Shown: one piece after another, positions 7,634 through 11,698 of the stretch
Layout of the letters: each line of letters begins with the position of its first letter
Numbering within the stretch: position 1 is the first letter of the stretch
Virus record (IMG/VR): IMGVR_UViG_3300008448_000756
Span: 1-21,975 of that record
Strand: one strand, 5' to 3'
Length of the DNA stretch: 21,975 bases
From: a virus
Notes under the pieces: generated by a model
Told to the model about the DNA's origin: nothing
Seen by the model: the letters and a program-made list of their open reading frames with translations, nothing else
Database searches by the model: none
Program-made: the position numbers and the translations under genes

Positions 7634-8041
7634 ATGACCCGACCGTTTCTCCCCTTCTTCAATCCTTCCCGTCCAGTGTTTGTCAAACAACATGGCATTC
7701 AACTGGCGGGTAAGGTTTGGAAGAAGGGTGATAGATTTAACTGGGAGTTCTTCGGAACCCCACAGGAAGTTATCCAACAGTTGTTCTTCAATGACATGCT
7801 TCACCACAATGAAGAGTTAGAAGAGGTAGCTGCTAAGAAAGTTTCCATTGGCGATGGTCTTGAGGAATACTCAGTTGACCAACTACACCTTCTTGTAGCC
7901 AATATCAATGGCAAGGTGAAAGCCAAGACAAAGAATAGCACAGAGTTCATGCAGAAGAAGTGTGCCACTAGTAAGATCAAAGATAAACAGATTGGTCTTA
8001 TTCGTCGGTGGCGTATCTCCTACGGGGACTTAGAAAACTAA
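7634..8041 (+). CDS. Hypothetical phage protein between capsid and connector genes
   Basis: The product is 135 residues from the ATG at 7634, preferred over a GTG at 7625 because AAGGAG (7620-7625) is eight bases upstream of it. The N-terminal half contains VKQHGIQLAGKVWKKGDRF and WEFFGTPQE, the middle is acidic and helical, and the C-terminal part is strongly basic (about residues 94-130, with several Lys and an IRRWRISYG run). No membrane segment or signal peptide is visible. Its position between capsid and connector suggests a head or neck role, but I do not recognise the family. Confidence 0.6.
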   Translation: MTRPFLPFFNPSRPVFVKQHGIQLAGKVWKKGDRFNWEFFGTPQEVIQQLFFNDMLHHNEELEEVAAKKVSIGDGLEEYSVDQLHLLVANINGKVKAKTKNSTEFMQKKCATSKIKDKQIGLIRRWRISYGDLEN

Positions 8042-9911: not shown

Positions 9912-10823
9912 ATGGCCTTTGCACAGGGTTCGCGTTCCAGCCTCGCCTATATTGCTGAATCGACATTCGGCACCACCCCCTCCACTCCCACGCTTGCTAA
10001 CCTTCCGATTAACAGCCACTCGCTTGATCTGACGAAGGATCGTGTGGAAGGTAATGAAATCCAAGCCGACCGTATGCCTCGTGTTGACCGTCATGGCAAC
10101 CGTCAAGCTGGTGGTTCGATTGAAGTTGACCTTCGTAAAGGTGACTTTGACGCACTGTTCGAATCGGCTTTCCTCAACACCTACTCGACCAACGTATTGA
10201 AGATTGGTACGACCCCGAAGTTCTTCTCTATGGAAGACCGTGCTGTTGACATCGGGCAGTATCGTCTGTTCAAAGGTATGTCGGTCTCGACCATGAGTGT
10301 GTCGATTGCTCCGAACCAGATGGTCACTGGCACCTTCGAAATGGTCGGTAAGGACATGACCCAATCGTCCACCTCGGCTACTGCTTCGCCCATCACGGCT
10401 GCTTCAAACAATGCTCCCTTTGATAGCTACAGCGGTGTCATCTCGGATGGTGGCTCGGGTATTGCTATCGTGACTTCGCTTGAGTTTTCGCTGACCAACT
10501 CGTTTGCTCCGACCTTTGTTGTAGGTGCATCGACCACCCCGCAGCTTGAGTATGGCCGTGCTGTCGTTGAAGGCACCATGACTGTCTACTACGAGAATGC
10601 CACCCTGATTAACAAATTCCTGAACGAGACTGAATCTTCCATCCAAGTGACTGTGGACGATCCGACTGGTTCCTCGGACTACACCTTCTTGTTCCCTCGT
10701 GTCAAGTACAATGGCGCTTCTGTCCCGCTGGCTAACCCCCAGAGCCGACTGATTACCCTGCCGTTTGTTGCTCTGTACGATAGCACTGAGAACACCAACC
10801 TGAAACTTACGCGCTCCGCATAA
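9912..10823 (+). CDS. Major tail tube protein
   Basis: The 303-residue protein has an N-terminal SSLAYIAESTFGTTPSTPT (about 9-27) and RHGNRQAGGSIEVDLRKGDFDALFE (about 58-82), elements of siphoviral tail tube proteins, plus beta-rich central and C-terminal domains. It polymerises in hexameric rings around the tape measure. AAGGAG lies just upstream of the ATG. Its codon use resembles the capsid gene, with serine TCG dominant, unlike adjacent genes, fitting the second most abundant virion protein. It is followed by an intergenic structured RNA and the tail assembly chaperones. Confidence 0.85.
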   Translation: MAFAQGSRSSLAYIAESTFGTTPSTPTLANLPINSHSLDLTKDRVEGNEIQADRMPRVDRHGNRQAGGSIEVDLRKGDFDALFESAFLNTYSTNVLKIGTTPKFFSMEDRAVDIGQYRLFKGMSVSTMSVSIAPNQMVTGTFEMVGKDMTQSSTSATASPITAASNNAPFDSYSGVISDGGSGIAIVTSLEFSLTNSFAPTFVVGASTTPQLEYGRAVVEGTMTVYYENATLINKFLNETESSIQVTVDDPTGSSDYTFLFPRVKYNGASVPLANPQSRLITLPFVALYDSTENTNLKLTRSA

Positions 10824-10940
10824 GAATCCTCGTAAGAGGTAGGGGCGAGAACAACTGTGTCGGGCGGAAGTCTCGCCCCGTTTGTATAAAACCCGACACA
10901 TACTACACCTATCAACCCGACTGATAAAGGAATACCCGAC
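10824..10940 (+). promoter_or_regulatory. Structured intergenic RNA with predicted H-type pseudoknot
   Basis: A small hairpin CCTC-GTAA-GAGG (10828-10839) with a GNRA-type loop is followed by stem 1, GGGGCGAGA (10842-10850) with TCTCGCCCC (10871-10879). Inside the 20-base loop, TGTGTCGGG (10856-10864) is exactly complementary to CCCGACACA (10892-10900), giving a 9+9 base-pair H-type pseudoknot with connectors of 5, 6 and 12 bases. CCCGAC recurs at 10916-10921 and at 10935-10940, the last lying between ribosome site AAAGGA (10926-10931) and the ATG of the chaperone gene. So the loop can alternatively pair with the start region. A U-tract is absent, so a simple terminator is less likely. Function is inferred. 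Confidence 0.6.
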
Positions 10941-11339
10941 ATGGATTTGCTCGACATTGGTAAAACCAAAGATACCACCGAAGTTACTTTGTATCATCCC
11001 GTCACCTCTGAGGTGCTTACGAACAAAGATAGCTCACCTATGACTATTACTGTGCATGGCCCTTATAGCAAGAAGTATAAGTCGATTGCTCATGCACAAC
11101 AGAATCGTCGTCTCGCTAAAGCCCAACGTGGTGGTAAGATGACGCTCTCTGCCGAAGAAATTGAATCGTCTGCAATGGAACTTCTCGTCCAGTGTGTAGC
11201 TGATTGGAGCATTACCCTTGGTGGTGAGAAGCCCAAATGCACAGAGGCAAAAGTCCGTGAAGTGTTCACCAACATGCCTTGGGTTAAAGACCAAGTTGAT
11301 GCTGCATTGGGTGATGCTCAGGCTTTTTTGGAGAAGTAA
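10941..11339 (+). CDS. Tail assembly chaperone, short form (lambda G-like)
   Basis: The 132-residue product lies between tail tube and tape measure genes, the fixed place for the G/T chaperone pair that coats the tape measure before tube assembly. It has a beta-rich start (TEVTLYHPVTSEVL) and a helical C-terminal half with VADWSITLGGEKPKCTEAKVREVF (about 93-116), similar to tail assembly chaperones. The ribosome site AAAGGA (10926-10931) lies nine bases upstream. Near its end, TTTTTTG at 11324-11330 is placed in the correct phase for -1 slippage, so this frame also provides the first part of the longer fusion protein. Confidence 0.8.
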   Translation: MDLLDIGKTKDTTEVTLYHPVTSEVLTNKDSSPMTITVHGPYSKKYKSIAHAQQNRRLAKAQRGGKMTLSAEEIESSAMELLVQCVADWSITLGGEKPKCTEAKVREVFTNMPWVKDQVDAALGDAQAFLEK

Positions 11340-11698
11340 AGGCGTCTCTCCTTGAGTATGCTGAAAAGAGTTTTAGGCTTGATCGTAAGGCCAAAGGCAC
11401 TAAAGGCACCGAAAGAGATCACCTAGAGCAAGTCGCAAAACAGTTGGGAAGGGACGTAAGTTCCAACAATTTGGTTGATCTACCTCCCTTCCCTGATCTT
11501 GTGACACACATTTGGGCCGCTTTCATAGAACTACACAATGGTAGAACCTATGGTATGAGCGGCCCAAATCCTATTTCGTATGATACCATTTATTTCTGGT
11601 GTCGTATGACTGGTATAGAACTCACACCTTGGGAAATCAGTGTGGTTAAAGACCTAGACAACGAATACATAAAAGCAATGGGTGAAGAAAATGGCTGA
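10941..11698 (+). CDS. Tail assembly chaperone, long form made by -1 frameshift (lambda GT-like)
   Basis: Predicted product of joining 10941-11330 to 11330-11698, about 252 residues. After the slip the -1 frame reads on without a stop from GEVKASLLEYAEKS to the TGA at 11696-11698. The T part contains VDLPPFPDLVTHIWAAFIELH, NPISYDTIYFWCRMTGIEL and TPWEISVVKDLD, matching the conserved T-domain pattern (PISY, LT/PWE). The T frame has no good start of its own: the only candidate in its right half is a TTG at 11444 that would drop about forty residues. It ends by overlapping the tape measure start. Recoding is inferred from sequence, but it is the standard arrangement for siphovirus tails. Confidence 0.85.
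11324..11330 (+). promoter_or_regulatory. -1 programmed ribosomal frameshift site
   Basis: The heptamer TTTTTTG is read as T TTT TTG in the short chaperone frame, three codons before its stop (11337-11339), matching the X XXY YYZ rule. Slippage by -1 gives TTT TTT then GGA in the T frame. A weak 5-bp hairpin, GGAGA (11330-11334) with TCTCC (11347-11351), begins at the slippery site; no stronger stimulator is obvious downstream. Confidence 0.85.

Follow-up and report, generated by a model that had tools for sequence, protein, structure and literature searches.

We find that the junction between the tail tube and tail assembly chaperone genes of an IMG/VR phage record and its relatives carries a conserved RNA element, the structure and location of which are well supported by comparative sequence analysis, and we propose, with confidence about evenly divided for and against, that it is a cis-acting pseudoknot of the late mRNA in which competing loop pairings keep the chaperone translated far less than the tube. 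Tailed phages make hundreds of tube subunits and few chaperones from one operon, and to our knowledge little has been described of how this ratio is set beyond the chaperone's own frameshift. A compact conserved RNA sits exactly where the abundant tube meets the scarce chaperone, and the question is directly testable because the element persists in phages of differing tube family and also in cultured ones (CRP-6, RDJL Phi 1). The window, i.e., the whole stretch of DNA analyzed, is a phage record of 21,975 bases with genes for terminase, capsid, tail tube, chaperone, tape measure and PhoH, and its tail junction is laid out as follows.

9912–10823, + strand: tail tube protein gene (PHROG 290; Pfam PF18906 Phage_tube_2), stop codon 10821–10823
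10828–10839, + strand: P1, a small hairpin directly 3′ of the tube stop codon, CCTC-GTAA-GAGG, with pairing kept in relatives
10842–10850, + strand: 5′ arm of P2 (stem 1), GGGGCGAGA, from the window sequence and alignment
10859–10864, + strand: loop core GUCGGG, the 5′ part of stem 2, found in 199 of 199 distinct tracts
10871–10879, + strand: 3′ arm of P2 (stem 1), TCTCGCCCC, from the window sequence and alignment
10892–10900, + strand: rep1, CCCGACACA, the 3′ strand of stem 2 (P3), from the window sequence and alignments
10915–10921, + strand: rep2, ACCCGAC, the second copy, from the window sequence and relatives
10927–10931, + strand: Shine-Dalgarno-like AAGGA of the chaperone gene, from sequence, its position conserved in relatives
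10934–10941, + strand: rep3, ACCCGACA, between the Shine-Dalgarno word and the start, overlapping the A of the ATG, from the window sequence and relatives
10941–11339, + strand: tail assembly chaperone gene (PHROG 313), with a second chaperone part in the −1 frame, to 11698

The 3′ end of the chaperone ORF (11322–11339) reads GCTTTTTTGGAGAAGTAA, and the −1 frame is open past the end of that ORF into an ORF at 11444–11698, to 11698; the pattern fits a programmed −1 frameshift at T6, of the tail chaperone G/GT type.

The original prediction, made from the window, was of two perfect 9-bp stems interlocking at 10842–10900, and both are present there, GGGGCGAGA with TCTCGCCCC and TGTGTCGGG with CCCGACACA, the 5′ side of stem 2 in the window (10856–10864) being longer than the core. 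The loop lengths of 5, 6 and 12 nt are likewise as predicted, as are the three occurrences of ACCCGAC at 10891, 10915 and 10934, with CCCGAC recurring at 10892, 10916 and 10935 and the last of these touching the chaperone ATG. CCCGACA occurs three times in the whole window, both strands counted, and all three lie at this junction. An interlocked pair of perfect 9-bp stems is found exactly once in the 22-kb window vs two in total among 200 dinucleotide-preserving shuffles of the whole window (≈0.01 per window). Nested folding of the region is unremarkable (z = −1.0), since nested folding programs cannot draw knots. A search of the window with Rfam 15 gives no family above the gathering threshold, and the top-scoring matches below it in the region (13.8 of 58 bits) are unrelated, which rules out a known Rfam RNA as the identity of the element; a search of the open-access literature returned nothing on it. 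The first reading had overlooked the P1 hairpin after the tube stop codon, and P2 as it occurs in the window, 9 bp with a 20-nt loop, is an unusual form, relatives usually having 12–14 bp on an 8-nt loop.

Loci were gathered by their tail tube protein, and a pattern search added more loci to the pool. In a set chosen by protein only, at a tube identity of at least 60%, every one of the 199 distinct tracts (the 100 nt behind the tube stop) has GUCGGG, and this, with the rarity of a match in the shuffles, rules out a chance fold. Among 187 distinct elements with a recognizable start codon, the P2 hairpin has 12–14 bp in 175, and the loop is UGUCGGGU in 129, AGUCGGGU in 46, CGUCGGGU in 8 and UGUCGGGC in 4, the last of these being the window's own clade. 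Among the 73 distinct P2 hairpins, many positions show each of the six standard pair types. Because the stem had been picked as the best helix around the loop, pairs were also counted on a plain MAFFT alignment of 32 members, where 92.1% of cells are paired vs 42–55% when slid by 1–3 columns, double-change cells number 101 vs 29.6 in shuffles, and 13 of 13 aligned P2 pairs show compensatory double changes (0 of 500 shuffles). Covariation among relatives had been named at the outset as a check on the fold, and for stem 1 the compensatory changes are present throughout. The sequence of P1 varies in the same alignment while its pairing stays, with double changes at three of four pairs. These comparisons of sequences establish the structure of P2, its position and its conservation. 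RNAalifold, run on alignment A4, does not draw P2, because the alignment registers differ by one, and model R1 was therefore made from the loop-repeat pairs plus sequence only. In four loci (L352, L357, L358 and L360), the P1 loop holds an insert of two small hairpins and the P1 stem is retained.

The P2 hairpin immediately behind the tube gene is highly stable (mean −21.5 kcal/mol), and the major capsid gene also has a strong hairpin behind it, which is consistent with a role in mRNA processing or stability, in which P1 and P2 would shield the 3′ side of the tube message after downstream cleavage or decay, with the repeats secondary. The precedent is the Rhodobacter puf operon, where a strong intercistronic hairpin likewise stands behind a highly expressed gene of an alphaproteobacterial operon, whereas the conserved loop and the complementary start-site copies belong to the phage element. 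We regard this role as unlikely, as it does not account for the invariance of the GUCGGG loop, nor for why complementary copies are in excess and placed at the ribosome binding site. A G+C-rich hairpin behind an abundant gene, followed by ATTTT in CRP-6-like members, might also be taken for an intrinsic terminator or attenuator, reducing transcription of what lies downstream of the tube gene. This is very improbable, since a terminator would not need a conserved loop, and at least five T in the next 8 nt follow only 18% of 120 distinct hairpins, too few for the U-rich tract that a terminator requires, which rules it out as a general reading.

Stem 2 is maintained in a different manner. The loop word and rep1 are paired in 98.2% of cells of the 32-member MAFFT alignment, and within the window's group four of the seven pairs vary, on one side only each time and always to G-U when pairing persists. 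Rep1 is ACCCGAC or ACCCGAU in 156 of 185 elements; of the rarer forms, C>T and A>G still pair, and A>T, A>C and a final C>A affect terminal pairs only. Changes in the repeats are nearly all C>T or A>G, with pairing kept as G-U. A cross-lineage alignment, to which Xiamenvirus (RDJL Phi 1, RDJL6), other contigs and one Azospirillum prophage were added, shows one compensated pair of the seven: in 8 of 21 rows, a GUCGGGG loop occurs with a CCCCGAC copy, a change from U-A to G-C at the seventh and last P3 pair, with as many double-change cells in 1 of 500 shuffles, the copy being mostly the second of a tandem and the rows having been found partly by a tandem-containing pattern. Because the loop is invariant, most of stem 2 rests on wobble-only changes and on the complementarity of two conserved words, not on covariation. 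The predicted H-type pseudoknot is thus supported by covariation in stem 1 and by retained pairing in stem 2, where change is limited to G-U within the group and to that single U-A to G-C pair across lineages. Between P2 and the first copy lie at least 7 nt with 12-bp stems and at least 9 nt with 13-bp stems, and as few as 8 nt with 14-bp stems; an H-type knot over about one helical turn requires such a spacing. Most shorter spacings between P2 and rep1 have a tandem second copy further on, so that the loop lengths of an H-type knot are available by one route or the other.

The complementarity of the loop to what lies downstream is equally well established from the sequences. There are one to four downstream CCCGAC copies per element, and sites between P2 and the ATG that pair with the loop over at least 6 bp average 2.48 per element vs 0.60 after dinucleotide shuffling, with at least two such sites in 91% of elements (10% expected) and at least three in 57% (vs 0.8%). 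The original prediction also had the loop pairing alternatively onto the chaperone start. In the window's group, a suitable word (CUCGAC, CCCGAC, CCCGAU or CCUGAC) is kept directly before or over the ATG in 184 of 187 elements, the exceptions being L391 and L050/L197, in which an inserted HNH-like ORF supplies the first ATG; a start-codon word one pair shorter, ACCGAC, is found in eight elements. Start-codon copies are conserved also in lineages L571, L581, L594 and L607–L609, but none is found in Xiamenvirus, L569, L585 or L549, and pairing at the start site therefore lies outside the universal core. What all lineages share is a complementary copy downstream of P2 and upstream of the ribosome binding site. 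The loop pairing is stronger with rep1 than with rep3 in 156 of 185 elements (means of −12.5 vs −10.7 kcal/mol), and in the window the pairing energies are −15.4, −11.2 and −13.8 kcal/mol for rep1, rep2 and rep3, respectively.

Because this lineage-wide core is the copy upstream of the Shine-Dalgarno word, not the copy at the AUG, the strongest rival explanation is an activator of the repZ type, in which a loop-repeat pseudoknot immediately 5′ of the Shine-Dalgarno would be required for opening the chaperone start or for ribosome loading, coupled to termination at the tube stop. H-type mRNA pseudoknots control translation of plasmid replication genes in repZ systems (ColIb-P9 and IncI/IncL/M relatives), where, as here, the partner word of the hairpin loop directly precedes the downstream Shine-Dalgarno and a translated frame ends a short way upstream. 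The last upstream copy is at most 1 nt from the Shine-Dalgarno word in 79 of 183 elements (it is further upstream in the others); RDJL Phi 1, 2 and 6 have tandem copies directly before AGGAG or TGGAG and none at the AUG; the tube stop codon is just upstream of the hairpins in all; and in several distant PHROG 290 phages that lack the element, the chaperone start overlaps or nearly touches the tube stop. Copies between the Shine-Dalgarno and the AUG, which are kept in several lineages, instead look inhibitory if paired, and we consider activation possible but doubtful. The two systems differ in that the upstream frame is a structural gene here and a leader peptide in repZ, and in that the phage element has several competing complementary copies, one of them at the AUG; in repZ the pseudoknot is required for translation and is under the control of an antisense RNA, whereas we know of no antisense RNA for the phage junction.

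The invariant loop, up to four complementary copies, knot-distance spacing and location between a high-copy and a low-copy product are best read as cis-acting translational control. On our preferred reading, of restraint by competing pairings, the loop would pair mainly with rep1 or its tandem neighbor, giving a pseudoknot just upstream of the chaperone ribosome binding site, and in lineages with copies at the Shine-Dalgarno or AUG those copies could capture the loop instead, covering the start. A balance among the alternatives would hold chaperone translation well below tube translation, and may respond to ribosomes reaching the tube stop codon. We infer that P3 forms in the cell, that the copies compete and what the sign of the effect is. 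The two pairings were originally suggested to act as a switch or dosage control, which is plausible; a two-state balance is not assured, because short-range pairing should strongly outcompete pairing at the start codon.

Other known pseudoknots share parts of this design. The coronavirus (IBV) type has a similar stem 1 of ≈11–14 bp, short loop 1 and loop 3 of ≈8–13 nt, but the phage element lies outside a coding overlap and slippery site, the chaperone frameshift site being ≈400 nt further downstream. The T4 gene 32 autoregulatory pseudoknot and other phage operators are also upstream of a start codon in phage mRNA; the junction element differs in being intergenic in a late structural operon and in having repeat copies, and, unlike for the T4 gene 32 pseudoknot, no protein binder is known to us.

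The start-codon motif recurs at one other gene. The chaperone accounts for 92 occurrences of CCCGAY with ATG and the post-capsid gene for 41; the 20 found elsewhere are near the 24–31 of control words, and this control level outside the two sites rules out a general start-codon motif of these genomes. In the window, CCCGAC is at 7638–7643, just inside the post-capsid ATG at 7634 (in a relative, L082:3983–3993), and CCCGAY lies within the first 75 nt of the post-capsid gap in most genomes of one hairpin type and almost never in the other. Most relatives have a strong hairpin before the post-capsid gene, which carries no GUCGGG loop and is thereby ruled out as a second copy of the element. Because the post-capsid gene has the motif without a loop of its own, the role of CCCGAY-ATG need not be local pairing only. 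The word before the AUG could be recognized in trans by a protein or another RNA, the P2 loop acting as a decoy or as antisense to it, as the two-site distribution and the loopless post-capsid hairpin would allow; we hold this to be quite improbable, since base changes obey RNA pairing rules with the P2 loop, and about half of the group lacks post-capsid copies yet retains the GUCGGG loop. A broader proposal, which we also think improbable, is that the GUCGGG loop has two pairing partners, the chaperone start in cis and the post-capsid CCCGAY-AUG start either in trans or across ≈3 kb of the same mRNA, as part of a widespread alphaproteobacterial tailed-phage RNA family that sets virion protein ratios; one loop would then tune two low-copy genes behind the two most abundant structural genes. 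A second conserved type of post-capsid hairpin, GGUGGACCCUGAGCUUCGGCUUGGGGUCCAACCC-like, replaces the GGUGGGGG...CCCCACC type in about half of the relatives (e.g., L205 and L018), and is possibly another unnamed RNA element.

The element extends well beyond the window's group and occurs in numerous alphaproteobacterial phages. It is carried by the cultured Roseobacter phage CRP-6, which belongs to a group abundant in the ocean (PMC6918029), and by RDJL Phi 1, RDJL6 and IMG/VR copies of RDJL Phi 2-like genomes. A pattern search gives 22 places, 12 with an 11–14-bp P2, most of these after a tube-like gene. In three of the loci (L568, L571 and L586), the upstream tube gene is from another family, PHROG 158 (phrog_158), and the downstream gene is a relative of the GTA-gp10-like chaperone (PHROG 6454/2115 in all three, with a sub-threshold Pfam match in two); the element follows phrog_158 tubes in Azospirillales prophages as well. 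Searching host genomes with the tube protein found no relatives, and the prophages emerged through pattern and model. In one pattern search, the full element is found only in the Azospirillum match; a Chloroflexi match (L590) has a weak 9-bp hairpin and no tube-like gene before it, and the remaining matches look like chance. Model searches gave matches in 6 of 82 genomes from the order of the Azospirillum prophage host, with the full hairpin found by script in five of these (all but L606), and, across 385 genomes sampled from the whole class, only the seed genome. In a model scan of ten phage records, each genome gives one strong match, with two weak second matches in all; the window's near-identical sister record scores only 16.9 bits, because the P2 of that clade is atypical. 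The element is absent from the Bradleyvirinae, Queuovirinae, Shewanella S0112, RSP, Tedan, Erythrobacter R6L/ZS04 and 9NA records examined, of which Bradleyvirinae and Queuovirinae have similar tube/chaperone junctions; these records rule out its presence in every phage with this tube fold. HM151342 gp78 (L426:7594–9114) is labeled 'major capsid protein' and, tested for RDJL Phi 1, matches tail tube PHROG 290, making the capsid label a probable misannotation; the same label is found in RDJL6, S0112 and R6L.

Two junctions are interrupted. HNH-like ORFs lie directly behind a P2 with a GUCGGGU loop in L050 (≈86–540 nt after the tube stop) and L197 (≈65–530 nt), and the junction there looks like a homing site. 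In L050, an apparent leftover P2 3′ arm is found past the HNH-like ORF, followed by rep copies and rep3, while past the ORF in L197 the stretch from the ribosome binding site through the start to the first codons of the chaperone occurs as tandem copies spaced 123 nt apart.
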